DNA from: Rhizobiales bacterium 64-17
GTDB lineage: Bacteria > Pseudomonadota > Alphaproteobacteria > Rhizobiales > Xanthobacteraceae
Length of the DNA stretch: 64,000 nt
Direction of reading: 5' to 3'
Assembly (NCBI GenBank): GCA_001899285.1
Contig: MKWA01000004.1
Span: 1-64,000, forward strand
Every line of letters begins with the position of its first letter. Within the stretch, counting starts at the first letter, position 1. Under the pieces are notes generated by a model. That model did no database searches. It was not told the DNA's origin and saw nothing but the letters and a program-made list of their open reading frames with translations. Both the position numbers and the translations under genes were made by a program. Positions 16,288 to 59,719 of the stretch are shown here, piece after piece.

Positions 16288-16376
16288 TCCGCGCCCGGCT
16301 CAGTCCCTAGCAGACTCCGGCTCCGCATGCGAGCGGGGCACCTCGCGTCGGGACTTGTAAAAAAGCACAAAAACAA

Positions 16377-16403
16377 GCCGCCGCGACGGCAGGTCGCGGC
16401 GGC
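16377..16403 (-). terminator. Intrinsic terminator downstream of the 16429-17388 gene
   Basis: gccgccgcgac-ggcag-gtcgcggcggc 11-bp stem followed on the minus strand by ttgtttttgtgctttttt. Confidence 0.8.
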
Positions 16404-16428
16404 CCTGTGACGAAATTACGGACTATGG

Positions 16429-17388: not shown

Positions 17389-17477
17389 CGCATCCTCCCT
17401 GTTGTGTTTTTCCGCCCCGTTTGACGGCTTTTATAGCAAGCCTGTTGTTGTGCGTCGTTTATTCTTGAACCCGCTCT

Positions 17478-18776: not shown

Positions 18777-18947
18777 GGCCTCGCCTCCCACCGGCGAACG
18801 GGTCGCCAAAAATCATTAGCCGTCTAAGTATTTTTCAGTTTATAAGAGGTCCAGCATGGCTGTCGAGGGTGAAAATCCACGCACCCACCTCACAGCATTC
18901 TTTGTGCGCTGCACTCTCGATGGCATTTTTGGGATGACCCCGGAGCG

Positions 18948-19910: not shown

Positions 19911-21109
19911 CCCCCATGACCGCATCCGATCGCCCGATCCGTCTCGGTGTCGCCGGCCTCGGCCGCGCTTTCACGCTGATGCTGCCGACGCTGATCGCCG
20001 ACAAACGCATCCGGCTCGCGGCCGCGACCGATTCCCGGCCGGAAGCGCGCGCGCGTTTTACCGCCGATTTCAGCGCGCCTGTTTACGAGAGCGTCGAGGC
20101 GCTGTGCGCCGACCCCGATCTCGATGCGATCTATGTGGCGACGCCGCACCAGCTTCATGCTGCGCATGTCTGCGCCGCCACCGACCATGGCAAGCATGTG
20201 CTGGTCGAGAAGCCGATGGCGGTCAGCATCGCCGACTGCACGGCGATGATCGATGCCGCGCGTCGCAACAACGTGCATATCGTCGTCGGGCATAGCCACA
20301 GTTTCAATGCGCCGGTCCTTCAGGCGCGCGCATTGATCGCCAGCGGTGCTTACGGCGCGGTGCGGATGATGACCGCTCTCAATTACACCGATTACATGTA
20401 TCGCCCGCGCCGGCCGGAGGAGATGGACACGGCACAGGGCGGCGGCGTGGTGTTCAGCCAGGGCGCGCATCAGATCGACATCGTGCGGCTGCTCGGCGGC
20501 GGGATGGTGGAGAGCGTGCGCGCGGCGACCGGCTCATGGGATCCGGCGCGGCCGACCGAGGGCGCCTATGCCGCGCTGCTGTCGTTTGCCGGCGGCACCT
20601 TCGCCACCGCCAGCTACGAAGGCTACGGCCGGTTCGACACCGACGAATTCATGGACTGGATCGGCGAGATGGGCACGCCGAAGGACCGCAGCCGTCACGG
20701 CGCGGCGCGGCGTGCGCTCGCCGGCGCAGACGCCACGCGGGAGGCGGAGCTGAAAGCCGCGCGCAACTACGGCGGGTCCGGCTATGCCGGTCTGCCCGCG
20801 CCGGCCGCGAACCGCGTCCATCAGCATTTCGGCGTGATGGTGATTTCCTGCGACCGCGCCGATCTGCGGCTCACGCCGCTGGGCGTGATGATCTATGGCG
20901 ACGACGCGCCGCGGCTCGAACCCATGGCGGTGCCTGACATTCCACGCGCCGAGGTAATCGACGAACTGCATGCGGCGGTGATCGACGGCAAACCGCCGCT
21001 GCACGACGGCGCCTGGGCGCGCGCAACGCTGGAAGTCTGTCTCGCCATTCTCCAGTCCGCGCGCGAGAAGCGCGACGTCACCCTCGTGCACCAAACCGCA
21101 GCGCCGTGA
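19907..21109 (+). CDS. Gfo/Idh/MocA family oxidoreductase
   Basis: N-terminal Rossmann IRLGVAGLGRAF, HVLVEKPMAVSIADC; 4-nt overlap with preceding gene. Confidence 0.9.
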   Translation: MTPMTASDRPIRLGVAGLGRAFTLMLPTLIADKRIRLAAATDSRPEARARFTADFSAPVYESVEALCADPDLDAIYVATPHQLHAAHVCAATDHGKHVLVEKPMAVSIADCTAMIDAARRNNVHIVVGHSHSFNAPVLQARALIASGAYGAVRMMTALNYTDYMYRPRRPEEMDTAQGGGVVFSQGAHQIDIVRLLGGGMVESVRAATGSWDPARPTEGAYAALLSFAGGTFATASYEGYGRFDTDEFMDWIGEMGTPKDRSRHGAARRALAGADATREAELKAARNYGGSGYAGLPAPAANRVHQHFGVMVISCDRADLRLTPLGVMIYGDDAPRLEPMAVPDIPRAEVIDELHAAVIDGKPPLHDGAWARATLEVCLAILQSAREKRDVTLVHQTAAP

Positions 21110-21750
21110 GCATCATGGCAACGACGCCTCGCAAGACCCGCAAGCCTGCCGCACGCAAAGCGGACAAGGCTGACGACACGCAGGCGATCCTGCGCCACTG
21201 GCGCGAAGCGGTGCCGAACGACCGCCTCGCACATCTGGTCAAGGACGCGACCCGTGCCCTGCTGCGGGCGTTACAGATGCGGCTCAACGAGCAAGGCGTC
21301 TCGCTCGGGCACTGGACGTTCCTGCGCGTGCTCTGGGAGCAGGACGGCCTGACACAGCGCGAATTGAGCGCGCGCGTCGGCGTGATGGAGCCGACCACCT
21401 TCTCGGCGCTGCAGGCGATGGAGCGGCTCGGCTACGTCACGCGCCGGCACATGGCCGACGACCGCAAGAAGATGTTCGTGTTCCTCACGCCGCTCGGGCG
21501 GCAGTTGAAACACCGGCTGGTGCCGCTGGCCGAAGACGTCAACGAGATCGCAGCGCGCGGTATTCGTGCCGCCGACATCGCCACGACACGCCGGACCTTG
21601 CTGACGATCCTCGAAAACCTGGCACTGGACGAGGCCGGATCGGGCGGACGGATTCCATCCACCCGCGAGATTGCGCGCCGCCACGCCGGCGAAGGGCGCC
21701 GCACCCGCCGGACGCCACGGGCCGGACGCCGCGAGCCGGTTTCCGCCTGA
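21106..21750 (+). CDS. MarR family transcriptional regulator
   Basis: LTQRELSARVGVMEPTTFSALQAMERLGYVTRRHMADDRKKMFVFLT wHTH. Confidence 0.88.
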   Translation: MSIMATTPRKTRKPAARKADKADDTQAILRHWREAVPNDRLAHLVKDATRALLRALQMRLNEQGVSLGHWTFLRVLWEQDGLTQRELSARVGVMEPTTFSALQAMERLGYVTRRHMADDRKKMFVFLTPLGRQLKHRLVPLAEDVNEIAARGIRAADIATTRRTLLTILENLALDEAGSGGRIPSTREIARRHAGEGRRTRRTPRAGRREPVSA

Positions 21751-21854
21751 ACGTCACATCAGCCTTGTTTTCGCCACTCTTGCTTTCATCTTGCCGGCCA
21801 ATAGATTGCAATCTTGAATGATCGGGGCGGTCGCATTGCCCCCGGAGATATCTC

Positions 21855-22217
21855 ATGCGCCTACCCGTGCTCGCTGCCCTCGCCCTCGCTGCCACCACCG
21901 CTCTCGGCTTCTCGGCCGCGCCGGCGAAAGCCGACTGGTTCGACTGGTGGTATACGCCGCGTTATGAGGGCCCGTGGTGTCTGGTTGCCAACATGGGCGC
22001 CGCCAATGTGGTAAGCGACTGCCAGTTCCGAACCTTCGACGCCTGCCGGCGGGCGTCGCTGACGGGCAATCGTGGCTTCTGCAACCAGAACCCGCGCTAT
22101 GTCGGCGAAGCCCCCGCCGCCACGCCGCGCCCCGCGCAAGCACAAGCGCCGCCACTGACCGCAGGCGAATGCGCATTTACAAGATCTGCACGGCTGCGGA
22201 ATGGGACGCCGCCGTAA
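21855..22217 (+). CDS. DUF3551-like small exported protein
   Basis: Signal peptide then WYTPRYEGPWCLVANMGAANVVSDCQFRTFDACRRASLTGNRGFCNQNPRY. Confidence 0.7.
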   Translation: MRLPVLAALALAATTALGFSAAPAKADWFDWWYTPRYEGPWCLVANMGAANVVSDCQFRTFDACRRASLTGNRGFCNQNPRYVGEAPAATPRPAQAQAPPLTAGECAFTRSARLRNGTPP

Positions 22218-22513
22218 GGGACGGCGCCTATCGCGGCTCCGCCGTCGATCGTCGCGACGGATTCATTCATTTCTCGACGGCCGCGCAGGTGCGCGACACC
22301 GCTGCAAAGCATTTTGCCGGGTTGTCCGACCTTGTGTTGATCGGCATTGATGACACGCGCCTCGGTACTGAATTGCGCTGGGAGCCGTCACGCGGCGGCG
22401 CGCTGTTTCCGCATCTCTATGCGCCGCTGCCGGTCGAGGTGGCGACGAGCGTCACCCCGCTGCCGCTCGGGAATGACGGGCGTCACCGCTTTCCGGACTG
22501 GCTTGATCAGTAG
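22169..22513 (+). CDS. DUF952 domain-containing protein
   Basis: MRIYKICTAAEWDAAVRDGAYRGSAVDRRDGFIHFSTAAQVRDTAAKHFAG. Confidence 0.85.
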   Translation: MRIYKICTAAEWDAAVRDGAYRGSAVDRRDGFIHFSTAAQVRDTAAKHFAGLSDLVLIGIDDTRLGTELRWEPSRGGALFPHLYAPLPVEVATSVTPLPLGNDGRHRFPDWLDQ

Positions 22514-23868
22514 CGGTCGATCTCGCGACGAACCTTGTCGAGCACCGCGTGCGGCGCACGCACGAATTCAGAACGACTGAGCGCCGCGCCGTCGCCTGGA
22601 CGGGTCGTCGCCACCATCCCGATCTTGGTGACGGTGAGGTTCTCGTGCACCGGATCGCAGCGGTCCGCCTTCACGCCGGGAATGACCATGAGGTCCTCAT
22701 CGCCGCGAAAGCGCGCGGCGAGCGACCATTCCACATCGCGCGGATTTTCCGGATCGACGTCATCCTCAACCACGGTGACAAGCTTCAGCAGATTGACCTC
22801 GCCCATCGCCAGCAGGATCGCGCGCTTGCCTTCGCCCAGCTTTGGCTGGTGCATGGAAATGACCGCATGCAGCCGGCCCATGCCACCCTCGGTGATGACG
22901 ACGCGGCGCACCGCCGGGATCATTCGCTGCAACGTTTTCTGCAATGTCGCGCCGATGGCGATGGCGCCGAGCAGGCAATGCTCGCTGGCATAGCCCGGCA
23001 GGATCGTCTGGAAGATCGCATCCTTGCGGTGCGTGACGCAGCGAATCTCGCCGCCAATGCCGGGGCCGTAATTCACATAGAAGCCGTGAAATTCCGAGAC
23101 CGGGCCTTCGTCGATCAGCGCATCGGGATCGAGCGTGCCTTCCAGCACGATCTCGGCATCGGCCGGCACATCGAGATCGACGGTCTTGCAGCGCGCAAGC
23201 CGCAACGGCGCGCCGAGCAGCCCGCCGATATTGTCGTATTCGTCGTCGCCAAGCCCGAGATAAAGCTGCGAGCCGAGCAGCACCGCCGTGTGATTGCCGA
23301 TCGCTACCGCGATCTCCAGCGTGCGGCCGAGCGCCTTCGCTTTCTCCGCCAGCAGATTGAGATGATGATTCTTGGCGATGCCGGCCATGATCCGCCCATC
23401 GCCTTCCAGCCGCAGCCGGGCAATGGAGATGTTGCGCCGGCCCGTCTCCGGGTCTTTCGCAACGATCACACCGGCGGTGATATAGGGCGCGGTTTCACGC
23501 TCGAACCAGGTCGGCACCGGCAGCAGCCGCGCCAGATCGATGGCACGATCATGCACCACCTCCTGCACCGGCGCGTCGCCCACCAGCACCGGCTTCACCG
23601 GCGCCGTGAGCGCTTTCTGCAACAACGCATCGAGCCCATCACGGGGGACATCCAGCGCCTCGGCAAAGCGGGCGCGGGTCGAAAGGACATTGCCAACCAC
23701 CGGCATCGTTGCGCCGGTGACGTTCTCGAACAGCAGCGCCGGGCCGCGATCGCGCAACGCCAGCACCGCGCCGAGTTCGAAGCGCGGATCGACCGGCCGC
23801 GTGACGCGATGCAGCGCACCGTTGCGGTCGAGACTGGCGAGAAAGCCGCGCATGCTCTGGTCGGTCAT
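22507..23868 (-). CDS. UbiD family decarboxylase
   Basis: MTDQSMRGFLASLDRNGALHRVTRPVDPRFELGAVLALRDRGPALLFENVTG; EFHGFYVNYGPG; ERETAPYITAGVI. Confidence 0.9.
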   Translation of the reverse strand: MTDQSMRGFLASLDRNGALHRVTRPVDPRFELGAVLALRDRGPALLFENVTGATMPVVGNVLSTRARFAEALDVPRDGLDALLQKALTAPVKPVLVGDAPVQEVVHDRAIDLARLLPVPTWFERETAPYITAGVIVAKDPETGRRNISIARLRLEGDGRIMAGIAKNHHLNLLAEKAKALGRTLEIAVAIGNHTAVLLGSQLYLGLGDDEYDNIGGLLGAPLRLARCKTVDLDVPADAEIVLEGTLDPDALIDEGPVSEFHGFYVNYGPGIGGEIRCVTHRKDAIFQTILPGYASEHCLLGAIAIGATLQKTLQRMIPAVRRVVITEGGMGRLHAVISMHQPKLGEGKRAILLAMGEVNLLKLVTVVEDDVDPENPRDVEWSLAARFRGDEDLMVIPGVKADRCDPVHENLTVTKIGMVATTRPGDGAALSRSEFVRAPHAVLDKVRREIDRY

Positions 23869-23884
23869 CGGCGATCCCGTCCCC

Positions 23885-25531
23885 TTACGACGGCAAGCGG
23901 AAGTGATTGATCTTCTTTTGCCGCGCTTCGTCCAGCGCGTCCTCGTATCCGGCATCGGCATAGCGCATCACGCCGGTCGAGGTGTCGTTGGTGAGCGACA
24001 GCGACAACCGCTCGTCGGCGGCGTCCGAACCATCCGCCACCAGCGTGACGCCGGCGCTGGTCATATAGCCGGAATAGCCGCCGCCGCCGGAATGGATCGC
24101 CACCAGATCGGCCTGCGAGGCGCAATGCACCATGGCATTGAGCAGCGGCCAGTCGGCGATGGCGTCGGAGCCGTCGCGCATGTTTTCCGTCATGATGTTG
24201 GGGTGCGCCATCGCCCCCGCGTCGAGATGATCGCGGGTGAACGCAATCGGGCCGGTCAATTTTCCGGCGCGTACCATATCGTTGACCGCGAGCGCCAGAT
24301 CGGTGCGCTCGCCATGGCCGAGCCAGGCGATGCGCGCCGGCAACCCCTCGAACGGCACATGCTGGCGCGCCAGCCTGATCCAGTTGGAGACGATCTGGTT
24401 GTGGCCGAATTTCTCCAGCACGATGTCGTCGATCTTGCGGATGTCCTCGGGATCGTTGGACAGCGCGATCCAGCGGAACGGGCCGATGGCGCGCGCGAAC
24501 AGCGGCCGCAGGAACGCTTCCGTGAAAATCGGAATATCGAAGGCGTCTGCGACGCCGCCGTTCTTCGCCTGGGTGCGGATCAGATTGCCGTTGTCGAACA
24601 CCACCGCGCCCTTTTTCTGGAACTCCAGCATGGCGGTGACGTGGCGGACGATCGAGCGGGTCGACTCGTCCATCAGCACTTTCGGATCACCCTTGCGCAT
24701 CTCGCGCACCTCGGCGGGCGAGCGGCCGGACGGGATATAGCCATAGACGAGATCGTGCGCCGAGGTCTGGTCAGTGACCACATCGGGCACGAGGCCGCGC
24801 CGCGCGATCTCCGGATAGATGTCGGCGGCATTGGCGCAGAGGCCGACCGACAGCGGCTGCTTGTCCGCCTGCGCCTTGCGGATCATCGCCAGCGCCTCAT
24901 CGAGCGACGACGCTTTCACATCGAGGAAGCCGATCGCCATCCGCTTGTCGATGCGCGCCTCATCGACATCGAGACAAAGGATGGCAGCCTTTGCCATCTT
25001 GCCGGCGAGCGGCTGCGCGCCGCCCATGCCGCCGAGCCCCGCCGTGAGCACGAAACGGCCGGCAAGATCGCCGCCGAAATGCCGCGCGGCGATCCGCATG
25101 AAGATTTCGTAGGTACCCTGAATGACGCCCTGCGAGCCGATATATTGCCAGTCGCCGGCGGTGAGCCCGCCCCAGCAGATCAGGTTCTTGTTCGCGAGGT
25201 CGTAGAAGTTCTCGGCTTTCGCCCACTGGCCGATCATGTTGCAGTTGGCCATGATGATGACCGGTGCTTTCGCGTGGGTGCGCAGCACGCCGATCGGCTT
25301 GCCCGACTGCACCAGCAGCGTTTCACCATCCTCGATGGTCTTCAGCGTCTCGACGATCTTGTCATGCGACGGCCAGTCGCGCGCCGCCTTGCCGAGCGCG
25401 GCATAAACGACGAGGTTGTCCGGGTCTTCGCCGACTGCGAGGACATTTTCCAGAAGACGCAGCAGTCCCTCCTGCCGCCAGCCGCGACACCGCAGCCGGC
25501 CACCGGAGGTGACGGGAAAATCGCGTTTCAT
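23885..25531 (-). CDS. Urocanase (urocanate hydratase) family protein, probably non-canonical substrate
   Basis: LLVQSGKPIGVLRTHAKAPVIIMANCN; YIGSQGVIQGTYEIF; FVLTAGLGGMGGAQPLAGKMA; active-site region ICWGGLTAGDWQYIG differs from the usual MMYGQMTAGSWIYIG. Confidence 0.85.
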   Translation of the reverse strand: MKRDFPVTSGGRLRCRGWRQEGLLRLLENVLAVGEDPDNLVVYAALGKAARDWPSHDKIVETLKTIEDGETLLVQSGKPIGVLRTHAKAPVIIMANCNMIGQWAKAENFYDLANKNLICWGGLTAGDWQYIGSQGVIQGTYEIFMRIAARHFGGDLAGRFVLTAGLGGMGGAQPLAGKMAKAAILCLDVDEARIDKRMAIGFLDVKASSLDEALAMIRKAQADKQPLSVGLCANAADIYPEIARRGLVPDVVTDQTSAHDLVYGYIPSGRSPAEVREMRKGDPKVLMDESTRSIVRHVTAMLEFQKKGAVVFDNGNLIRTQAKNGGVADAFDIPIFTEAFLRPLFARAIGPFRWIALSNDPEDIRKIDDIVLEKFGHNQIVSNWIRLARQHVPFEGLPARIAWLGHGERTDLALAVNDMVRAGKLTGPIAFTRDHLDAGAMAHPNIMTENMRDGSDAIADWPLLNAMVHCASQADLVAIHSGGGGYSGYMTSAGVTLVADGSDAADERLSLSLTNDTSTGVMRYADAGYEDALDEARQKKINHFRLPS

Positions 25532-25541
25532 CGTCCCGCCC

Positions 25542-26630
25542 TCACCTCAGCGCGTAATCGGTCAGATTGATGCCGAGCGCCTTTTCCACGATCGGATAAA
25601 CCGACGGATCGGTGACGCTCGATGACAGCGGAATGTGGGCCTTGGCGATACGCAGCACCAGCACGTCATCGCCCTCGCGCAATTCGCCGACGCTCATCGG
25701 CACGCCATCGCGGTTCAGCGTCGTGATCACATCGGGGAAGCCGGACAGCCGCGCGCCCTGCGCGTCATCGACCGCCATATATTCGTTCATCACATGCAGC
25801 GTCACCGCCTTGGCGCCATCGCCGACACGGATGGTGCCGATGTCGAACGCCTCGTTGGTATAGGTCACGGCCTTCTTGGTGATCCTGCCCTGACCGATGA
25901 TCTCGCCCTTGGTCTCGCGGCAGATCGCGTCGATCACCGCCGCGCCGCCCTTCGGCTCGGCCTGCAAGATGGCTTCGCCGAGCGCCAGCGCGATGGAAAT
26001 GCCGCCAAGCGCGGCATGCTTCTTCACATAGGACGCGCGAACCGGATTGCGGCACGAGGCGATGAAGCCGCCCGACATGTCCGACGCCGTGCGCAGGATC
26101 GGCGATATCCTGCCGGTCGCGCCGCGCACGACGAGTTCGATATAGGCGTTCTTGCTGCGGTTGCCGCCGACCGCCGACTGGATCATCGGCTCCGGCGAGT
26201 TGGCGAGGCCGATCGAACCCATGTCACCTGTCGGATGCGCGCGGATATCGCCGACCGCATCGATCACCTTGGTGCCGAGGATTGCTGACGGCAGCCACGC
26301 ATTCATGGTGCTCGACTTGCCGTTCTGACCGATGATCAGCCCGTAGATCGGCGCCCCCAGTTCCTTTTGCACCAGGCGCACGGCGTTGACGTAATCGACG
26401 CCGAGCATCTGCCATTCGGTGGTGCTGGCCGGCGCACCGATTGCGGCGGCGGTCGCGATCCACGCATCGTCCGGCACGTCATCCATGGAGACGAGTTCGG
26501 GTTGACCGGCATTCACCGCCGCCGTTCCCAGCATGCGGCCATGGTCAGCCCATCCCCCACCGCCGGCCGCGAAGACCGAACCGCCCTTCACGGCACGTTC
26601 GACGTCGCGTGCGGTGAGAATCCGTCCCAT
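25542..26630 (-). CDS. DUF917 / S-methyl-thiohydantoin desulfurase-domain protein
   Basis: MGRILTARDVERAVKGGSVFAAGGGGWADHGRMLG; DVLVLRIAKAHIPLSSSVTDPSVYPIVEKALG. Confidence 0.8.
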   Translation of the reverse strand: MGRILTARDVERAVKGGSVFAAGGGGWADHGRMLGTAAVNAGQPELVSMDDVPDDAWIATAAAIGAPASTTEWQMLGVDYVNAVRLVQKELGAPIYGLIIGQNGKSSTMNAWLPSAILGTKVIDAVGDIRAHPTGDMGSIGLANSPEPMIQSAVGGNRSKNAYIELVVRGATGRISPILRTASDMSGGFIASCRNPVRASYVKKHAALGGISIALALGEAILQAEPKGGAAVIDAICRETKGEIIGQGRITKKAVTYTNEAFDIGTIRVGDGAKAVTLHVMNEYMAVDDAQGARLSGFPDVITTLNRDGVPMSVGELREGDDVLVLRIAKAHIPLSSSVTDPSVYPIVEKALGINLTDYALR

Positions 26631-26641
26631 GGTGTACTCCG

Positions 26642-27901
26642 TTAGCGATTGTGTCCGTCGAGCAGGCGGACAGCTTCATACAAAGTCGCGGCGCCGGCCG
26701 AGAGTTGCTCCGGCTCGGTCCATTCTTCCGGCGTGTGGCTCTTGCCGTCCTTGCACGGGATGAACAGCATTGCCGCCGGCGCGATGCGGGCGACGAACGC
26801 GGTGTCGTGTCCCGCGCCGGACGCGAGCGATGTCGTCGAATAGCCGAGCGTCGTCGCGCCACGGCCGAGCAGATCGCGCAGATGCGCGTCGCAGATCGTC
26901 GGCTTGGTGCTCGACAAAGTGGCGAAGCGCGGACGCTTCACATGCGCCGCTGTAGCGATACGGCTGCTTTCCCGATCGAGCGCAGCCGTAAATTCGACGG
27001 CGACCGCCGGGTCTTCGGCGCGGATATCGAGGATGAGCCGTGCCTCGCCCGGCACCACATTGGCGGCGTTCGGCTTGATGTCAACGACGCCGGTGGTGGC
27101 CACGAAATGCCCCTGCCCGCGTTCGGTGAATGCCCGCGCCTGTTCGGCGACGAACAGGATCAGTTGCGCGGCCGCGAGGCTCGCGTCCTGCCGGTCCTGC
27201 ATCTGCGTGGTGCCGGCGTGATCGGCCGCGCCCTTGAACACCACCTCAATGCGGGTGATGCCGACGATCGCCGTCACCAGACCGAGGTCGATCTTGTTGT
27301 TCTGCAGCACCCGGCCCTGCTCGATATGCAGTTCGAGGAAGCCGGCGATACCCGGATGGCGCGCGTCGTTGAGCCGGCCCGGATCGCCGCCGACACGACG
27401 GATCGCATCGTCGAGCCGCTCGCCCGCCGGATTGGTATAGGCCAGCATCTTATCGTCGAGCACGCCGGCCATGGCGCGGCTGCCGACGCAGGAAATGCCG
27501 TATTCGCTCGGCTCCTCGGCCAGGAAATCGACGATCTCGATCGGATGGCGCGGCACATAGCCAGCCTCGCGCATGGCGCGTACCACTTCGAGCGCGGTGA
27601 TGATGCCGGCCGGGCCATCGAACCGGCCGCCCGACGGCACCGTATCCGAATGCGAGCCGAGCATGATCGGCCGGGCGCCGGCCTCGCTCCCCTCCAGGCG
27701 ACCGATCATGTTCGCGGCGGTATCGAGCCGCACTTTCAAGCCCGCTTCCTCGAAGCGTTGGCGCAGCCAGGCGCGGCCATCGAGGAACAGCGGCGAGAAC
27801 GAGCGCCGGGTGTGGGGGTGCTCCGGGTCGGTGATGGCGGCGAGCGCCATCAGGTCGTCCCAGATCCGCTGCTGGTTGATCTTGAGAGGTGTCGTCGTCA
27901 T
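26642..27901 (-). CDS. Zn-dependent hydantoinase/carbamoylase-family amidase (N-carbamoyl-amino acid / allantoate amidohydrolase-like)
   Basis: MLGSHSDTVPSGGRFDGPAGIITALEVVRAM; EEPSEYGISCVGSRAM; ELHIEQGRVL. Confidence 0.9.
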   Translation of the reverse strand: MTTTPLKINQQRIWDDLMALAAITDPEHPHTRRSFSPLFLDGRAWLRQRFEEAGLKVRLDTAANMIGRLEGSEAGARPIMLGSHSDTVPSGGRFDGPAGIITALEVVRAMREAGYVPRHPIEIVDFLAEEPSEYGISCVGSRAMAGVLDDKMLAYTNPAGERLDDAIRRVGGDPGRLNDARHPGIAGFLELHIEQGRVLQNNKIDLGLVTAIVGITRIEVVFKGAADHAGTTQMQDRQDASLAAAQLILFVAEQARAFTERGQGHFVATTGVVDIKPNAANVVPGEARLILDIRAEDPAVAVEFTAALDRESSRIATAAHVKRPRFATLSSTKPTICDAHLRDLLGRGATTLGYSTTSLASGAGHDTAFVARIAPAAMLFIPCKDGKSHTPEEWTEPEQLSAGAATLYEAVRLLDGHNR

Positions 27902-29286
27902 CAGCTTGCGACTTTGTACTCCGCCGGCTGCGCCAGCACAGGATGGATGAAATGGCCGTTGCCCGGTTCCGCTAGCACACGGGTGCCATCGAACACCATC
28001 GCGCCGCGCAGGAATGTCGCCACCGGGCGATACGGCAACTCGATCCCGGCATAGGGGCTCCAGCTCACGAAATTATGCCCGCTGGCCGCCGGATCGTACC
28101 GATGCGGCCGATGCGCCATCACCACAATGTCGGCATCGCGGCCGACTTCCAGCGCGCCCTTGCGGTGGCCGATGCGGAACAGCCGCGCCGGATTGGCCGC
28201 CAGCAGACGCGCGGCGAAGCTCACATCCAGGCGCCGCTCGGTCAGCCCCTTGAGCAGCAGCGCATAGAGCACTTCGAGGCCCGGCACGCCGGACGAATTC
28301 TTCAGCATGTCCGGATTGGTCTTGCGATCCTCCGACCAGCTCACGTGGTCGGTGGAGACCACGGTAACATTGCCGGCCGCGAGATGACGCCACAACGCCT
28401 CGACCTCGCGGCGCGGGCGGATCGGCGGATTGATCTTCGCCTTGCCGCCGAGCCGGGCGACATCGTTCTCTTCATCGAGCGTCAGATAATGAATGCAAGC
28501 CTCGATGGTGGCGTCGAAACCCTGCGCGCGATAGCCGGCGCAGAGATCGTAGCCGCGCCCCACCGAGCAGTGCACAATGTGGCCGGAGCAGCCGGCGTCG
28601 GCGGCGAGTTCGTACACTTCTGCCATCGCCAGCGTTTCGGTCGCCGGCGGACGCGACAGGCCGTGCGCGCGATAATCGCGAATGCCGGAGGCTTCGACCT
28701 CGGCCATCGCTGCGCGCACCATCTCGTCGTTTTCGTTGTGCACGCCGGCGGCGAGACCATGCGCCGCGATCGCCTTGAAGCAGGCATGCAGGGTTTGCGG
28801 GGGAATGCGCGGGAAACGCTTCGGGTCGGTGCAGAAGGTCGAGAACTTGAACGCAGCAGCACCGGCCGCGACCATATCGCCGATATATTTGGCGCCGTCC
28901 TCGGGATTGATAGTCGCATACAGCGCAAAGTCGACGCGCGACTGCGGCCCGGCCTCCGCCACCTTCTGGCGCACGCGGTCGCCGGTGCAGACCAGAAAGC
29001 CCGCGTCGTACGGCATATCGACGATGGTGGTCACACCGCCGGCCGCCGCCGATCGGGTCGACCAGATGAAATCCTCCTGGTCTTTCTGCGACCGAGAATG
29101 CGTCTGCGCATCGATCGCGCCGGGCAACACATAAGCCTCGCCGAAATCGTGACGCTCTTTCGCCTGCGGCGCCGGTCCGCTGCCGACCCGCTCGACAAGA
29201 CCGCCGCGCACCGCCACATAACCGTCGTCGATGACATGGTCGGCCAGCACGACGCGGCCGGTGACAACAAGATCGAAATCACTCAT
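27901..29286 (-). CDS. Cyclic amidohydrolase (dihydroorotase/allantoinase/hydantoinase family)
   Basis: DFGEAYVLPGAIDAQTHSRSQ; VHCSVGRGYDLC; NVTVVSTDHVSWSEDRK. Confidence 0.88.
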   Translation of the reverse strand: MSDFDLVVTGRVVLADHVIDDGYVAVRGGLVERVGSGPAPQAKERHDFGEAYVLPGAIDAQTHSRSQKDQEDFIWSTRSAAAGGVTTIVDMPYDAGFLVCTGDRVRQKVAEAGPQSRVDFALYATINPEDGAKYIGDMVAAGAAAFKFSTFCTDPKRFPRIPPQTLHACFKAIAAHGLAAGVHNENDEMVRAAMAEVEASGIRDYRAHGLSRPPATETLAMAEVYELAADAGCSGHIVHCSVGRGYDLCAGYRAQGFDATIEACIHYLTLDEENDVARLGGKAKINPPIRPRREVEALWRHLAAGNVTVVSTDHVSWSEDRKTNPDMLKNSSGVPGLEVLYALLLKGLTERRLDVSFAARLLAANPARLFRIGHRKGALEVGRDADIVVMAHRPHRYDPAASGHNFVSWSPYAGIELPYRPVATFLRGAMVFDGTRVLAEPGNGHFIHPVLAQPAEYKVAS

Positions 29287-29295
29287 CGGATGTAC

Positions 29296-30012
29296 TCACT
29301 CATGACCGGCGGAAACGAAGACATCGAACAGGTTTTCATCCTGCTTGGCCTGCTGCGACGTACCGGAGAACGCCAGCGAACCGGACGTCATCACGCAGAC
29401 ATGTTCGGCGAAATCGAGCGCGCGGGTGGTGTTCTGCTCCACCAGCAGGATGGTCACACCCTGCGCCCTGAGCGTCGCAAGCGCCGCGAAGCACTGATCG
29501 ACCATTTTCGGCATCAGACCGAGCGACAGTTCGTCGATCAGCAGCAGTTTCGGCTCCGCCATCAGCGCACGGCCCATGGCCAGCATCTGCTGTTCGCCAC
29601 CGGACAGCGAGCCGGAGATTTGCTTGCGGCGATCCGACAGACGCGGAAACAGGTCGTAGACACGCGCACGATTGGCGGCGTCGTTGCGCGTGGACAAGTG
29701 ATAACCGCCGACAGTCAGATTTTCCTCGACGGTCAGATCGGTGAACAACCGCCGCCCCTCCGGCACCAGCGCAATCCCGAGATCGACACGGCGCACCGGC
29801 GGCACATGGGTGATGTCCTCACCGTTGAACAGGATGCGACCACCCTGCACCGCGGTGTGGCCCATGATCGCCATGATGGTCGAGGTCTTGCCCGCGCCGT
29901 TAGGGCCGAGCAATGCCAGCGCCGACTTGTCCGGCAATTCAAAGCTGACGTCCGTGACGGCTCGCACCGGACCGTAGCCGCAGCTCATGTTCTCAAGCCG
30001 CAGCATGGTCAT
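29296..30012 (-). CDS. Branched-chain amino acid-type ABC transporter ATP-binding protein (LivF-like)
   Basis: GPNGAGKTSTIMAIMG, SLSGGEQQMLAMGRALMAEPKLLLIDELSLGLMP. Confidence 0.93.
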   Translation of the reverse strand: MTMLRLENMSCGYGPVRAVTDVSFELPDKSALALLGPNGAGKTSTIMAIMGHTAVQGGRILFNGEDITHVPPVRRVDLGIALVPEGRRLFTDLTVEENLTVGGYHLSTRNDAANRARVYDLFPRLSDRRKQISGSLSGGEQQMLAMGRALMAEPKLLLIDELSLGLMPKMVDQCFAALATLRAQGVTILLVEQNTTRALDFAEHVCVMTSGSLAFSGTSQQAKQDENLFDVFVSAGHE

Positions 30013-47681: not shown

Positions 47682-47731
47682 TGGCGCGCCGGAAGGGATT
47701 CGAACCCCTGACCCCCAGATTCGAAGTCTGA
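47682..47731 (-). tRNA. Truncated tRNA-Arg(UCG) 3' fragment: island attachment site remnant
   Basis: Minus strand TCAGA-CTTCGAA-TCTGG anticodon arm, AGGGG-TTCGAAT-CCCTT T-arm, CCGGCGC-G-CCA acceptor 3' strand; no matching GCGCCGG 5' half or D-arm. Confidence 0.75.
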
Positions 47732-47880: not shown

Positions 47881-49104
47881 ATGGCCTCCAAAGGCATCAC
47901 AATCAAAGCAGTCCAAGCTCTCGAGACCGGCGAAACGATATGGGACGCGGGTCACAACGAGGCCGTAAAAGGCTTTGGCGTCCGACGACAGAAGGGTAAT
48001 CCTGTCTACGTCATCAAGTATCGCGTTTTCGGACGGCAGCGATTTGTCACCATCGGTCGCCATGGCGCGCCTTGGACACCTGAAACCGCACGCCGCGAGG
48101 CTAAGCGTCTATTCGGCCTCGTCGCGACTGGCAAAGACCCGCAGATCGAGAAAGCCACGGCGAAGGAGAATGGGACCTTTACGCTCCGCACTATCGGGGA
48201 CCAATACCTGCGGTATGCGGAGAAGAAGCAAAAGCCGCGCAGCTTTGCCGAAACCAAGCGCCACCTGAACAAGAACTGGAGGCCGCTCCACACGACCTCG
48301 ATTTTCGACATTCAACGACGCCATGTCGCGGTGAGGCTCGGGCAGATTGAGAAGGAGCGTGGACAGGTCGCCGCAGCCCGCTCCCGTGCCGCCTTATCTG
48401 CTCTCTTTAATTGGGCGATCCGCGAGGGATTTGATCTGCCGGCAAACCCTGTTACCGGCACCAACAAGCCTTTAGAACCGAAATCGCGCCAACGGGTGCT
48501 GTCGGACAGCGACCTTAAAGAAATCTTCGCCGCTGCCGGCGACGACGACTATGGCAAGATCGTCAAACTGTTGGCTCTTACGGGCCAGCGCCGCGACGAG
48601 GTCGGCGGAATATGCTGGTCAGAGATCGATGAGGACAGGAAGCTTTGGACCATCCCAGCCTCCCGAACCAAAAACCGACGGGAACACATGGTGCCCCTGT
48701 CCGACGAAGCCCTGGCCATAATCACAACCACGCCGCGCCAAACAGATCGGGACTTCCTGTTCGGGAGTGGGCCACGCAAAGCTGACGGCGAACAGCGCGG
48801 GTTTTCTGGCTGGTCAAAGGCCAAAGCCGAACTCGACCAGAAAATCCTCGAAGCCCGCCGTAAAGCTGATCCGGAAGCTAAGGCCTTCCCTTGGATTCTT
48901 CACGATCTACGCCGGACCTGTGCTACCGTTCTCGCCGACCGCTTTCGGACCCAGCCTTATATTGTAGAGGCCATTTTAAACCACATAAGCGGCCACAAAG
49001 CCGGGGTCGCGGGAGTCTATAATCGCGCAAAATATCTCGTCGAAATTCAGAAAGCCTTAGAAGCCTGGGGTCAATTCATCCGGACACTCTTGAAAGACGG
49101 ATGA
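47881..49104 (+). CDS. Tyrosine recombinase / site-specific integrase (DUF4102-type N-terminus)
   Basis: N-terminal FGVRRQKGNPVYVIKYRVFGRQRFVTIG; catalytic LALTGQRRDEVGGICWSEID, HDLRRTCATVL, ILNHISGHKAGVAGVYNRA (R..HxxR..H..Y). Confidence 0.95.
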   Translation: MASKGITIKAVQALETGETIWDAGHNEAVKGFGVRRQKGNPVYVIKYRVFGRQRFVTIGRHGAPWTPETARREAKRLFGLVATGKDPQIEKATAKENGTFTLRTIGDQYLRYAEKKQKPRSFAETKRHLNKNWRPLHTTSIFDIQRRHVAVRLGQIEKERGQVAAARSRAALSALFNWAIREGFDLPANPVTGTNKPLEPKSRQRVLSDSDLKEIFAAAGDDDYGKIVKLLALTGQRRDEVGGICWSEIDEDRKLWTIPASRTKNRREHMVPLSDEALAIITTTPRQTDRDFLFGSGPRKADGEQRGFSGWSKAKAELDQKILEARRKADPEAKAFPWILHDLRRTCATVLADRFRTQPYIVEAILNHISGHKAGVAGVYNRAKYLVEIQKALEAWGQFIRTLLKDG

Positions 49105-49179
49105 TCTATCTTCCATCCTCCCAAGGGTAAAGCAATCACTCAGCTGTACGCTCCGATGTCCTAGAATATCGCCGCCAAT

Positions 49180-50229
49180 ATGCCCGACGAGACAATCACA
49201 AATAATCAGCACTGGCTGGCTCTTAGTTCAGCATTCTCCTCACTGCGACGCGATGATCAAGCTGATCCCCTTGGCGCAGAGATGCGGCTCAAAGCAGTCA
49301 TCCGCACAGGCCAAGTTGTGTTGAGATGGGTTGACGGGAAATCCGCAGAGGATCGTCCTATTCATACTCATCTCGTTCGAACGAAATTGCGATTCCAGCA
49401 GACTGGACTCGCCTTTAGCGGACAAGAAGCTGATTGGGACACAGACTTGGCAAGATACAGACCACTCTACTTGCTGAAATCGAGCTTTGAAGAAGTTGCA
49501 CGCGCCCTTCCGAACATACCGTTTAATGATGATGGCACACGCAGCTCGCGAATGACCCTAGTCGAAGCAGTGGAGTGGGTTCGTCAAACTACAAATTGTA
49601 CGGAAGAAGCCGCGATAATATCCCTGAAGAACGAAATCCACTCAGGCAATATCAGCCTTGTTGGGTTTGGCGCAGAACCTCCAATACACCGCTCGCCGAT
49701 TATCAAACAGCACGGCAGGCTAACCTTTCAGAGAACGCGCTCATACCATCCGATTCAGCCATCAACCCTTAAGAAACTCGATATCTCTTTGTACGGCCCT
49801 GGCTTTTTGGTCCCAGCCGGGCGGCGCAGCACTCATGAAAACATCGCGGCCTCATCGTTCTCGCAATCGGCGGATAATGATGATGACGCCCTGGATGTCG
49901 AGGAGCGGACCGACTATCAAACCTTAGCATTTGTGAGCACCAAGGAAGTCGCCCAGATTTGGCCGCATAGCGTCGCAGTCAAGTTGACCAAGCCCATAGA
50001 ACCTATGCGTCGGAGGCGCGCAGGCCGACCGGGCGTCAGAGATGAAATCTTTCGCGCTTTAGATGAAATTTCCAGAAAAATAGAAGTAGCGAACCTCGAC
50101 AATAAAAGGCTCGAGGTTTTGGTTCTCGAACACCTGGGCAAATCATCAAATTCGAGGAATTACAGTAGTCGTACTATCGCGAAGTATATCGGTGAATGGC
50201 GAGAAACCCACAAAGTCGGCACTAAATAA
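49180..50229 (+). CDS. Hypothetical protein of the mobile module
   Basis: 349-aa ORF, basic C-terminus RRRRAGRPGVRDEIFRALDEISRK; no family recognised. Confidence 0.6.
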   Translation: MPDETITNNQHWLALSSAFSSLRRDDQADPLGAEMRLKAVIRTGQVVLRWVDGKSAEDRPIHTHLVRTKLRFQQTGLAFSGQEADWDTDLARYRPLYLLKSSFEEVARALPNIPFNDDGTRSSRMTLVEAVEWVRQTTNCTEEAAIISLKNEIHSGNISLVGFGAEPPIHRSPIIKQHGRLTFQRTRSYHPIQPSTLKKLDISLYGPGFLVPAGRRSTHENIAASSFSQSADNDDDALDVEERTDYQTLAFVSTKEVAQIWPHSVAVKLTKPIEPMRRRRAGRPGVRDEIFRALDEISRKIEVANLDNKRLEVLVLEHLGKSSNSRNYSSRTIAKYIGEWRETHKVGTK

Positions 50230-50294
50230 TATTGCGTATTTAGGGAGCATTTCGCGGATTTAGCCAGCTGGCGATAGTAGGCCCTGCAGAATAT

Positions 50295-50315
50295 GTCGTG
50301 TCAAAAGGACACGAC
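50295..50315. promoter_or_regulatory. Perfect inverted repeat immediately 5' of the alpA-like start
   Basis: gtcgtgtc-aaaag-gacacgac, ending 1 nt before ATG at 50317. Confidence 0.55.
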
Positions 50316-50316
50316 G

Positions 50317-50520
50317 ATGAACGAACCGCTGCTTGACCAGACCGAAGTCGCCAAGAAGCTCGGCATTTCGCCCCGAACCTTGGAGCGAATGCGGCTGATG
50401 GGCACCGGCCCGGCGTTCATCAAAATCGGCCGCTTAGTGCGTTATCGCGCCTGCGATCTAGAACGCTTCATCGCAGCTGCCACAGTCACCTCGACCTCAG
50501 AGCGCCCCGGTGCCCGCTGA
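50317..50520 (+). CDS. AlpA/excisionase-like HTH protein
   Basis: LLDQTEVAKKLGISPRTLERMRLMGTGPAFIKIGRLVRYRACDLERFI. Confidence 0.88.
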   Translation: MNEPLLDQTEVAKKLGISPRTLERMRLMGTGPAFIKIGRLVRYRACDLERFIAAATVTSTSERPGAR

Positions 50521-51352
50521 TCATAGCGCCGGTATTCGCACGCTTCTGCACGACGAAATTCTGTTCGGCGACGGCGAGCCAGACCTTGGACCTGTCATGA
50601 CCAGCGCGAAGGTAGCTCTTCGTTCTAGGGCCGTGGTCGATGTGCTGGAGAAAGCCGCCACGAAGGCAAAAAGCAGCGGCGATCACAGACGAGGCCGACA
50701 GCTTGCAAATCTAGCGGACGACCTCCGACACTGCCGGCCCCGGAGCCGTTGTGTCTCTCTCGCCTGTCCGCAATGCCTGCGAGCCCTGCAACGTGCCAAG
50801 ACGGAGGTGTTCACCCAGGCAGCGCAAGCTCGCACAGCAACACGTTCGAAGGCCAGGCCGGTATTCGTCACCATTGCCCCACCTCAATGGGTTTTTGAGC
50901 CCAGCGACCTTAACAAAATCTCCCTCGGCAAGGTCGTTCGTTGGCTCAAGGACACTCTTCGCCGCGAAGGGGTAGACCGCCCTATGCTCGGCAGTCTCGA
51001 CATTGACGTCAACAACGAGGGACGTATTCGAATCCATCTGCATGCGGTGATGTGGACGAAGAACTCGGCGCGTTTGACAGCTCGTCTAAAGAAGGCGCTC
51101 TCCACTTCACCTGACCTGAAATACGCGCGATCGGTTCAGGTCAACGGTACACGTGATCTTGGTTTCATCGCGTACAGCCTCAAGCTCGTGAAATTCCAAG
51201 AACTCCTGCGCCACAACCGCAAGATCTTGCCGGATCTTCTGCTCTTTCTGGACCGTACAAAAGCCAGCGACATCCTCGTCCTTTTCGGCTTCCACGCAAG
51301 TGCGCAGCGATCAGGCTTCATCGTCAGGCCTCTGATGAAAGCGTCTGGCTAG
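50510..51352 (+). CDS. Putative HUH-type rolling-circle replication initiator
   Basis: Cys pattern RCVSLACPQC; motif I PVFVTIAPP; motif II RIHLHAVMW (HUH); motif III FIAYSLKLVKF (YxxK); GTG start overlapping alpA stop. Confidence 0.65.
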   Translation: MPADHSAGIRTLLHDEILFGDGEPDLGPVMTSAKVALRSRAVVDVLEKAATKAKSSGDHRRGRQLANLADDLRHCRPRSRCVSLACPQCLRALQRAKTEVFTQAAQARTATRSKARPVFVTIAPPQWVFEPSDLNKISLGKVVRWLKDTLRREGVDRPMLGSLDIDVNNEGRIRIHLHAVMWTKNSARLTARLKKALSTSPDLKYARSVQVNGTRDLGFIAYSLKLVKFQELLRHNRKILPDLLLFLDRTKASDILVLFGFHASAQRSGFIVRPLMKASG

Positions 51353-51510
51353 TCAGCCTCGACCATCGTATCGACGAAACGCAAGAATCTCATTCGGAAA
51401 CAACAAAAAGGAGGCATCTGACGCATAATAGACCCGGTATTTCCCAAGTTCGTCAACTCAACTGCTTTCTAGACCCAGAGCTCGTCATCATTCGTCGACG
51501 CTAATTTCGC

Positions 51511-51531
51511 TGCGTACTGCGTACTGCGCAC
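51511..51531. repeat. Iteron-like tandem repeat, three 7-mers
   Basis: TGCGTAC TGCGTAC TGCGCAC between the Rep-like gene and the DUF927 gene. Confidence 0.6.
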
Positions 51532-51547
51532 AACAATAGGACATAAG

Positions 51548-53290
51548 ATGAAAAAAGATTCCCTTGATCCTACGATCCGGAAGATCAGCAACGACAGCGT
51601 TACACGTGAAATCACAGAGAACGAAAAGCCATCAATTCAGATAATCGCGCTTGGTATGCACCTGAAGACCGGGAAACACCTCATCAAAATTTCGTTCGAC
51701 GACATCCATAACGAAAGAAAAATCCATATCTTCAAACGCAAGATGCTCGCCGCTAGCATGAAGGCATCCCTCATTCGTGAATTGGTCGGCCTCGGCTGTC
51801 CTTGGCCATCAGAAGGCCATCGCAGCGACGCGCTGTGGCGCACCCTTGATAAAGCGAGGCCGGATTCGAGATTTTTGGTCCTGACAGCGCCGGGCTGGCA
51901 TAAGGAATACTTCGTCACGAGAAACCGACTCTACGGCCAAAGCGAAGTAAGCGAAGTGCTCATCGACGAAAACTCCCCCGAGCACGTGAGCGGGTTCACC
52001 ACAGCTGGCACTCTGGAGGGCTGGCAGCACGCGGTCAAAAATTACCCCAACCTTTCGTCACCACTATGCGTTGCGATGTCGGCAGCGTTTGCTGCCCCAC
52101 TACTGCGCCCGCTTGGATTCGATTCCTTCGCAATCAACTGGTTCGGAAAAACATCTGGCGGCAAGAGCACTATCATTCGGGCTGCGGCGGCAGTCGGTGG
52201 GTTATTCGAAGAGGATGGCTATAATTTGCCAACCTGGGGCGATACCGATGCGGCATTCGAAGCGCAGGCGATGGGGCATCGCGATTGCCTCTTCCCCATC
52301 GACGAAACCGGGGACGCGGAGCGCAATGATGTACCGCTGCACATTCGCGCGAAGCGTTGGGCATTCACGCTTTCTCGAAACCGGCCAAGAAAAACTGACG
52401 TGAGCTATGCGAGGGCGAAGGGGCACTTCGGCCGCGAATTTCGCGTGATCGGGATGAGCTCAAGCGAAACGGCGATGGGCGACGCCGCTGCCCGTGCCGG
52501 ACGCCGCAGGCTCGGCGGGGAGGAGGTCAGGCTCATCGACATCCCGGCTGAACAACCGGGCTCCATGGGGGTATTCGACGGCGACCTCAGCGACTACCCC
52601 GGGGTCGACGGTGCTCGGCAGCTAGCTGACGCGATCAAGGCCGATGTACGCCACTATCAGGGCGCCGCTTTCGATGCATATCTTCAAGCACTCTTTGCCC
52701 ACGATAACTGGCTCGCCCGCGCAAAGAAAGAGATCCGGCGATTTGAAAGGCGGTTCGGCGGCCCCACCGACACGCGGATCACTGGCCGGATCAAAAGCAA
52801 CTTTGCTGTCCTCTGGACAGGCGCGGCCCTAGCAATCCGATACGGCGTGTTGCCATGGTCGAGAAAGGAGACAGTGGCGGCTATAGGTGCCATTTATGAG
52901 CGCGCCATCAGGGCCCTTCCCGACAATGCCGCCAAGCCCATCCAGCTTGACGGATACGATCCGAAAGCCATGCTTAAAAAGCTTTCAGATGAGCTCGCCC
53001 GCGCAAGGTTGCTGCGGCTGAAAAGGAAGGGGGCGGTATCAGATAAAAAAGCGGTAGCCCGGCAAGCCGCCGATGGATTCTATATTGATGGGCATCTTTT
53101 TGTGAAGAACAATTGGTTCGTCGGTCTCTTCAATAAGGCCGAGCGAACGACCTTGAAGAAGGCTGGCGCGTTCGTCTCTCAGCGCGATGACACGCCCACC
53201 GTGTGCAAGAAGATCTACGGGATCGAGGGACGCCCGCGGTACTACCCCATAAATGAGCAGGTAGTGCAGGTGTCGCGAAGGGGCGAATAA
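51548..53290 (+). CDS. DUF927-domain helicase-like protein
   Basis: FAINWFGKTSGGKSTIIRAAAAVGG (Walker A-like), PTWGDTDAAFEAQAMGHRDCLFPIDETGD. Confidence 0.85.
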   Translation: MKKDSLDPTIRKISNDSVTREITENEKPSIQIIALGMHLKTGKHLIKISFDDIHNERKIHIFKRKMLAASMKASLIRELVGLGCPWPSEGHRSDALWRTLDKARPDSRFLVLTAPGWHKEYFVTRNRLYGQSEVSEVLIDENSPEHVSGFTTAGTLEGWQHAVKNYPNLSSPLCVAMSAAFAAPLLRPLGFDSFAINWFGKTSGGKSTIIRAAAAVGGLFEEDGYNLPTWGDTDAAFEAQAMGHRDCLFPIDETGDAERNDVPLHIRAKRWAFTLSRNRPRKTDVSYARAKGHFGREFRVIGMSSSETAMGDAAARAGRRRLGGEEVRLIDIPAEQPGSMGVFDGDLSDYPGVDGARQLADAIKADVRHYQGAAFDAYLQALFAHDNWLARAKKEIRRFERRFGGPTDTRITGRIKSNFAVLWTGAALAIRYGVLPWSRKETVAAIGAIYERAIRALPDNAAKPIQLDGYDPKAMLKKLSDELARARLLRLKRKGAVSDKKAVARQAADGFYIDGHLFVKNNWFVGLFNKAERTTLKKAGAFVSQRDDTPTVCKKIYGIEGRPRYYPINEQVVQVSRRGE

Positions 53291-53322
53291 TTTCGGCTAC
53301 CCCTTGAGCAACCATAAGACAA

Positions 53323-53349
53323 ACGGGGCCGCACAATCTGCGGCCCCGT
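53323..53349. terminator. Hairpin terminator candidate after the DUF927 gene
   Basis: acggggccgc-acaatct-gcggccccgt perfect 10-bp stem. Confidence 0.65.
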
Positions 53350-53576
53350 AAACTCATGGGCTTTGTAGCAAAATAAACTGACTATGCGGCTCGGAAAGGA
53401 TCGAACCCCGCCCCCTCCGCGACTATTTGGGCACGAATCGCAACCTCGAAACCATAAAAATTGACCACTCCATAGGAACGCCCGACGATCCATGAGGATT
53501 TCGCCCGGTTCCGGCCTGAGAATTTCGAGGGATATGGGCAGTTTGCAAAAGCTGCCCCATTTCCTAATATGCGCTG

Positions 53577-54006: not shown

Positions 54007-55292
54007 TTGAGGTTAGCTATGAACGAACGCGCCCTCGCGGGTGCGGGCGCTCGCATCCGCTGGCAATGGGCCATCGCGGTGCTGGCGTTCGCAGCCAGCA
54101 TCACCGCGTCGCAGGCGGAACCAAGAGTGCTCGGTCTGAACGAAGCCTTACAACTTGCTCTGCGCAGCGATGCGATAGTGCCTGCGATCCGGTCGCGGGT
54201 CCGCGGCGCTGAAGCCGGAATCCGCCAAGCGGACAGGCTACCCAACCCGACGATAGGTGCGGAGTTCGAGAATTTCGCCGGCTCTGGCAGCTATCGCGGT
54301 TCAAGCCGGATCCAAAGTACGGTGTTTCTGCAACAACTTCTGGAGCTCGGCGGCAAACGTGAGGCCCGGACAGGGGTTGCACAAGCCGAACTCAAGATTG
54401 CCCGTGCCCGCGGCGCTGTCCGGGTTCTCGATCTTCTCCGCGATGTCGAGCTGGCTTGGATCGATTTGGCTGTCGCTATAGCTCAGCAACGGATCGCCGA
54501 AGAGCGGCTATCCATCGCTCAACGGCTTCGCGATGAATTTGTTCGACGCTCTCAAAGCGGTCGCGATCCACTTTTCACACAATCGCGCGCCGAAGCACAG
54601 GTCGCGTTAGAAGAAATCGCCGTCGAGCAGGCTGCATCTGCGGCTCAGATCGCACGAGCTAATCTCGCATCATATTGGCGCGGGAATACCGACTTTACTA
54701 TCGACATCTCGCTTCTCGAAGCTGAACAACAGCACCACCGGAATAACGCCTACAACGTCGAAATCGCGCTTCTGCAATCGGAAAAAGAACTGGCAGCCGC
54801 GCGAACCGTGCTGGAACGTGCGAGAGCAATACCTGACCCTTCATTACGGCTCGGCGTGCGGCGTTTTACGGAAACGGGAGATTCAGCAGCGATTGCAGGA
54901 ATCTCGATCCCCTTGCCGCTTTTCGACAATAACGATGGCAATATCGAAAAGGCCGAGGCGGATCGCAGAGCGGTCGAGCTCGAAATCGAGACAGCAACTC
55001 GGGCCATGCGACGCGAACTGTCAAGGCTTGAAGGCCGATTGCGCGCCAACGCAGCCGAAGCAAGACGTATTCAATCCGACGTCATTCCACGAGCGCAACG
55101 CGCTGTCGACCTGATTCGCGACGGGCTCGAACGCGGCGTCTTTAGCTATGTCGAGTTCGCCGATGCGCAGCGCACCTTGAATGATGCGCGCTTGCGTCGG
55201 ATCGACGCTCTCAAAAGCTTCCAACAAGACAACGCTGCCTTGGCACGGCTCACCGGCCGCCACATGCGGCTCAATATGAAAGTTCCTCCGCA

Positions 55293-55296
<4 letters not shown>
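54007..55296 (+). CDS. czcC: TolC-family outer membrane efflux protein (CzcC-like)
   Basis: LNEALQLALRSDAIVPAIRSRVRGAEAGIRQADRLPNPTIGAEFENFAG; operon with HlyD/RND genes. Confidence 0.85.

Positions 55297-59719
<4,423 letters not shown>

Follow-up and report, generated by a model that had tools for sequence, protein, structure and literature searches.

A Rep_1-like protein and a DUF927 helicase in the probable replication module of a tRNA-integrated genomic island of Rhizobiales bacterium 64-17

The window analyzed here, namely positions 1 to 64,000 of contig MKWA01000004.1 (hereafter C4) of Rhizobiales bacterium 64-17, carries between 47881 and 53349 a short module of genes for a tyrosine integrase, an AlpA-type regulator, a protein resembling rolling-circle initiators, hereafter called Rep, and a DUF927 helicase. 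We conclude that this module probably serves a genomic island, inserted in a tRNA gene and apparently non-conjugative, as its backbone for integration, excision and replication. The arrangement of Rep with DUF927 recurs, as judged from sequence comparison, in mobile islands with defence genes across Pseudomonadota. A wider proposal, which we advance tentatively and hold to be somewhat less than evenly balanced, is that these islands may constitute an unnamed and widespread Pseudomonadota family of rolling-circle, helper-dependent integrative elements, in which a Rep_1-like nickase is coupled, and once fused, to a DUF927 helicase of the type found in staphylococcal pathogenicity islands (SaPI), with a cargo largely formed by anti-phage defence genes and a cluster containing DUF3768.

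The features of the module and of the sequence immediately preceding it are listed below, ORF standing for open reading frame.

47682-47730, minus strand: att core at the int end, matching the 3'-terminal 49 bp of tRNA-Arg(UCG) at 100% identity
47837-47865, no strand: probable integrase arm site, TGGTAGCTAAT in 1.9 tandem copies
47881-49104, plus strand: tyrosine integrase (int), 407 aa (PF00589, E 1.2e-13; Arm-DNA-bind_3, 3.1e-11)
49180-50229, plus strand: ORF of 349 aa, of no family, sitting between int and the AlpA gene
50293-50520, plus strand: AlpA/excisionase-type HTH_17 protein, 75 aa (PF12728, 2e-9; phrog_66, 9.7e-11)
50510-51352, plus strand: Rep-like protein, 280 aa, GTG start, with Cys4 box, motif I, HLH and YSLK
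51510-51528, no strand: 7-mer CTGCGTA, 2.7 copies, with no other tandem repeat found from rep to the DUF927 gene
51548-53290, plus strand: DUF927 AAA+ helicase, 580 aa (PF06048, 5.2e-35), with Walker A and B
53323-53349, plus strand: perfect hairpin of 11 bp that probably terminates the module

All five ORFs of the module are open and the start of rep overlaps alpA by 11 bp. The integrase, the AlpA gene and the DUF927 gene with its Walker A motif are found where the original prediction had placed them, each with profile matches: the integrase and the helix-turn-helix protein are recognized by Pfam, PHROGs and NCBIfam, DUF927 by Pfam and PHROGs. Rep and the 349-aa ORF, the latter missing from the gene list of that prediction, have no family in Pfam, PHROG or NCBIfam; in relatives the slot of this ORF is taken by an unrelated-looking ORF, the likeness being one of position only. 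The signatures predicted for Rep occur in the order claimed, with RCVSLACPQC at 50747-50776, FVTIAPP at 50864-50884, HLH at 51035-51043 and YSLK at 51173-51184. The iteron-like repeats proposed to follow rep, in turn, dwindle to a single weak trace, the 7-mer listed above, which is unusual for the 195-bp stretch between rep and the DUF927 gene (p 0.0006 versus a Markov null); among 328 stretches of that length taken from the 64 kb, however, 3 hold as much tandem repeat.

Rep is present in one copy in its own genome, and its family was built stepwise with a single sequence, then a profile of four and then a profile of thirteen members. Searched with the single sequence, 298 genomes of the order yielded weak matches, several with DUF927 immediately downstream; the four-member profile found Rep-like matches in 14 of 398 genomes, and the thirteen-member profile retrieved more members elsewhere in the class and phylum. 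The resulting alignment has 21 rows, the weakest matches (L102-L105 and below) being excluded from the counts, while the divergence in earlier alignments (A1, A2) was too great for pattern scans. Only whole-genome searches found the family: no close relative of the window Rep was found in named genomes or viral contigs, and tblastn with it in plasmids and phages gave none. One match in a viral contig (L110) was discarded as due to chance, the long ORF of that contig reading as an RNA-phage polymerase. All 21 rows keep C75, C81, C86 and Y222, nearly all keep C89 and H176, and K225 of the YxxK motif is present in most, three rows being without Lys; the second His of the HUH motif is less conserved than the first, and the motif is complete in about 12 of the 21 rows, the window protein showing HUH and catalytic Tyr in the expected order (HLH, YSLK). 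Given such conservation over 21 diverged relatives, these motifs are not there by chance, and by sequence Rep is a member of a real, divergent family. One member (L123) lies inside a large enterobacterial plasmid, Salmonella pIndS104-CTX (record 155031-173774), in the order integrase, ORF, AlpA, Rep-family protein, IS2 copy, DUF4433, ADP-ribosylglycohydrolase and helicase genes; its Rep is annotated in the plasmid record as 'hypothetical protein'.

The remote affinity of this family was evaluated by comparing its profile, with hhalign, to that of a Rep_1 alignment made of pUB110 and eight other plasmid Reps. The match scores 96.3% (E 1.6e-9) and spans the Cys box, the first strand motif and HUH, whereas twenty column shuffles and a reversal reach at most 0.2%, and the DUF927 alignment matched to the same Rep_1 profile gives 0.06%; block shuffles that keep the motifs whole retain a partial match, as expected. 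Homology thus identifies Rep as a remote relative of the Rep_1 rolling-circle initiators, in agreement with the initiator function originally predicted for the product of 50510-51352. The window Rep itself matches no Pfam family at E up to 1, the Rep_1 gathering cut-off not being reached, and REP_ORF2-G2P comes as the next replication family in the single-member Pfam search (E 0.039). PF01446 finds no match in the genome of the window, a result uninformative on absence since control genomes are equally without match, and a search of Rep against profiles of the Protein Data Bank returned a ferredoxin at E 1.8 and nothing else.

The partner of Rep is better defined. The DUF927 gene scores 121.9 bits versus a Pfam cut-off of 22.6, and its product displays a Walker A (GKTSGGKS) and a Walker B motif (LFPIDE). 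The profile of its family matches the staphylococcal pathogenicity-island structure 8tch at 8e-38 and 5dgk, an active helicase, at 2.4e-22, two entries that we take to be SaPI Rep and Cch of the staphylococcal cassette chromosome (SCCmec), respectively. By homology, then, the protein is an AAA+ helicase of the SaPI-Rep/Cch type, which bears out the helicase function first proposed for it. One report describes DUF927 as part of Cch and Cch as a relative of SaPIBovI Rep (PMC7581432), and another terms the role of DUF927 in mobilizable islands elusive (PMC7449626). The gene order is conserved elsewhere, as DUF927 adjoins Rep in 18 of the 21 loci and AlpA relatives lie directly upstream of Rep in several. 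DUF927 is on the opposite strand to Rep in one locus (L100) and truncated in another (L099), and no recognizable DUF927 stands beside Rep in L033, L035 and L101. In genome G084 (L037 7956-10823, minus strand) Rep and a diverged DUF927 are fused in one frame of 956 residues.

The site of insertion can be read from the att core, all 49 bp of which match, at 100% identity, the 3' end of a complete tRNA-Arg(TCG) found on another contig, C22 (G000:C22:489692-489768). ARAGORN finds no tRNA in the 64-kb window and Rfam scores a degraded tRNA at 47747-47685. A genome of the same genus, G398, presents the empty site, with a single intact tRNA-Arg(TCG) flanked by the gene that on C22 lies ahead of the tRNA and by a TetR-like gene; the counterpart of the latter lies left of 47682, and homology to the empty site stops at 47730. 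These data place the element in tRNA-Arg(UCG), flanked by 49-bp repeats; int adjoins the partial repeat, and the opposite end carries the intact tRNA.

The two flanks of the insertion are here on different contigs, C4 and C22. C22 ends 1,160 bp past the tRNA, inside etfB (C22:489769-490928), and C4, read backwards from its right end, begins inside etfA. Fragments of etfB and etfA at two contig ends raise the possibility that a second etfBA copy broke the assembly. An inverted 28-bp near-copy of the arm site follows the intact tRNA on C22 (local match score of 41 vs. a maximum of 29 in 500 shuffles), and the GC content, which drops at 47.7 kb from ~64.5% to 54-62%, remains low as far as the end of C4 at 122.9 kb. 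From the tRNA repeats, the arm sites, the composition and the etfB/etfA contig ends we infer an insert of ~77 kb that starts at 47731, takes in the rest of C4 and continues on C22 across a short unassembled part of etfBA. The compact 5.5-kb element ending at 53349 that had been envisaged is not supported, because GC stays low to the contig end and tRNA-derived repeats bracket all; the module is one end of the island. A tRNA T-arm-like scrap after the DUF927 gene (53391-53416, no strand), the best tRNA match in the island, was considered as an element end near 53.4 kb, possibly an old internal att, and rejected for being no better than shuffled sequence.

Three relatives are bounded by direct repeats at tRNA or tmRNA ends:

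G851 element: 5.7 kb in ssrA, 18-bp repeat, Rep without DUF927
G627 element: 12.4 kb in tRNA-Gln, 18-bp repeat, SIR2-HerA cargo, Rep (a weak match, outside the 21-member set) without DUF927
G197 element: 23 kb in tRNA-Ser, 16-bp repeat adjoining int, complete tRNA at the opposite end, Rep with DUF927

The last has the same layout and orientation as the window island and lies in a chromosome assembled as a single 4.6-Mb contig; several further family members are within a few kb of a tRNA. By reading, the G197 element (L040/L106, joined 15299-29740) contains ATPase-like, methyltransferase-like, helicase-like and possibly reverse-transcriptase-like ORFs, a large cargo that is perhaps a defence system, the one protein scanned having no PADLOC match.

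The cargo of the window island includes, besides catabolic genes, chromate genes, with ChrB recognized by profile, a restriction enzyme of type IIG (C4:76584-79688) and the following operon:

54007-59719, plus strand: efflux operon that resembles czcCBA, with genes for outer-membrane, membrane-fusion and RND components, by ORF reading

Other relatives carry type I restriction, SIR2-HerA, or DUF4433 with ADP-ribosylglycohydrolase genes. Packaging or phage-interference genes were not recognized on ORF reading, no systematic profile scan of all cargo having been made. The genome's matches to VirB4 and Relaxase (PF03432) are on C14, C15 and C24, not on C4 or C22, and MobA_MobL has no match in the genome; the predicted lack of conjugation genes is thus upheld for VirB4 and for these two relaxase families, which are the MOB families searched. 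The ORF at C4:80317-81003 (L027 16317-17000) joins a HEPN_RES N-terminal domain (weak match) to the C-terminal segment of an aldehyde dehydrogenase, a chimera that looks like the scar of a rearrangement within the island.

At C4:69-72.5 kb, outside the window, lies a cluster with a short integrase, DUF3768 and unknown families, which is also beside the module in about eight relatives and travels with Rep-DUF927. It comprises two or three unknown families, one built around 'YRQGxLDxxCxxYxxxNAIR', often with a short integrase-like ORF. Its loci are the following:

L027 5059-8522 (C4:69.06-72.5 kb)
L040 12799-15030
L036 1188-2966
L042 14488-15526
L095 4881-6144
L096 2430-4117
L098 11908-13333
L100 14484-16599
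L109 10951-12621

For the window island we infer excision, nicking, rolling-circle replication, transfer and helper dependence in the following manner. AlpA would turn on excision and the rep operon, and Int would circularize the island. Rep would then nick the origin via Tyr222, its HLH motif holding the metal, and the DUF927 ring would load at the opened origin and unwind it as the replicative helicase, with host polymerase copying the circle. The extra copies of the circle might guard the island against loss, and a helper could draw on them for DNA to transfer.

Several observations weigh against this scheme. Replication and excision are predictions from sequence, and the C22-C4 junction, in a part of etfBA, is not assembled, so that the length and unity of the island should be taken as probable. 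Matches of the family to Rep_1 (PF01446) in Pfam are weak (best E 0.0019, in 3 of 21 members), and the hhalign match stops at HUH, excluding the Tyr motif, for which the agreement is by eye. The structural model of the window Rep, from two sequences, is poor and of low confidence (pLDDT 52.8, pTM 0.51); its order of strand (motif I)-helix-strand-strand (HUH)-helix-strand is one that an HUH domain could have, and the structure-library search with it returned weak matches, many ferredoxin-like, with no specific one, so such models were set aside as too weak to use. HUH is degenerate in one branch of the family (HLW, HLQ, QLW, QLQ, CVH); because of this and of the three rows without Lys, a nickase function suits the window protein and may not hold throughout the family. 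Finally, the DUF927-type helicase of SaPI and SCC elements is itself taken as the initiator, and a nickase is therefore not strictly required.

Among the alternatives, the one that survives best, if still rather unlikely, is that the island is a fixed remnant: the module would be intact, and the 77-kb composite would no longer excise or replicate, its genes being passengers. Its size, far above the 5.7-23 kb of the delimited relatives, the dominance of catabolic and metal genes and the chimeric HEPN-aldehyde dehydrogenase ORF point in this direction, whereas the five open module genes and the 49-bp repeats, still 100% identical, point away from it. This possibility bears on whether the island is active today, and the family-level reading can stand beside it.

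The main rival to the function of the module is that DUF927 would be the origin-binding initiator, opening a bubble as in SaPI and Cch, and the HUH-like protein a nickase or mobilization protein for a conjugative helper. We consider this unlikely, even if DUF927 is homologous to SaPI Rep and Cch, islands mobilized by IncC and SXT carry HTH_17 and DUF927 with no such Rep mentioned in the available part of their description (PMC7449626), and ICEBs1 mobilizes Rep_1-type plasmids that lack their own relaxase (PMC5714925). The adjacency and fusion of Rep and DUF927 suggest instead one shared step, and the ssrA element of G851 has Rep without DUF927. Quite improbable is that Rep is a zinc-finger DNA-binding or regulatory protein with non-catalytic HUH-like and Tyr motifs, since the degenerate HUH of part of the family, the three rows without Lys and the lack of a confident fold are countered by the invariant Tyr, the near-invariant first His, the Rep_1 profile match well above controls and the steady partnership with a helicase.

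The backbone function that we favor matters because many defence and metal-resistance islands are without known means of moving or persisting. The module offers one group of them a plausible replication system, missed by current annotation, and the role of DUF927 in mobilizable islands becomes testable through a nickase-like partner that is once fused to it. No pairing of Rep and DUF927 was found in the available part of the literature on DUF927 and rolling-circle replication, which leaves out most subscription journals, and an earlier description is possible.

Among known systems, the Rep_1 plasmids pUB110 and pC194 share with the window Rep the Cys box, the first-strand motif, HUH and Tyr-x-x-Lys in the same order; the window Rep differs in being under the Pfam cut-off and in belonging to a chromosomal integrative element with a helicase, not to a small plasmid. 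Actinomycete integrative and conjugative elements (AICEs) of the pSAM2 type combine tRNA integration, Int/Xis, a rolling-circle-type Rep and an FtsK-like Tra conjugation gene; the first three are shared by the window island, in which no such Tra gene was noticed. Gram-negative phage-inducible chromosomal islands (PICIs) likewise bring together integrase, AlpA and replication genes at a defined att site (PMC6092414). The same combination is found here with replication genes of another type, Rep and DUF927 replacing Pri-Rep, in an island that extends for ~77 kb and has no packaging or interference genes recognized on ORF reading. The island is not filed as a PICI, because packaging genes were not seen, nor as an integrative and conjugative element, because no conjugation genes were found, nor under Pfam Rep_1, the cut-off of which is not reached.

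Nearest in content, with HTH_17 and DUF927, are the IncC/SXT-mobilized islands of the MGIVchHai6 and MGIVflInd1 types, which like the window island have an integrase, an HTH_17-type gene beside DUF927 and cargo; the DUF927 protein of MGIVchHai6 has 558 aa and the islands are mobilized by a helper, although the available part of the report mentions no HUH-type Rep between HTH_17 and DUF927 and the MGIVchHai6 family inserts at trmE (PMC7449626). The modules of SaPI Rep and SCCmec Cch have in common with that of the window a DUF927-type self-loading helicase in an integrative element, yet they are built on the helicase, in some cases with primase or polymerase, and not on a nickase, whereas in the window module the helicase follows a Rep_1-like protein, the two being fused once in the family. 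By analogy, the module would work like an SaPI/SCC replication module joined to a plasmid-type Rep.

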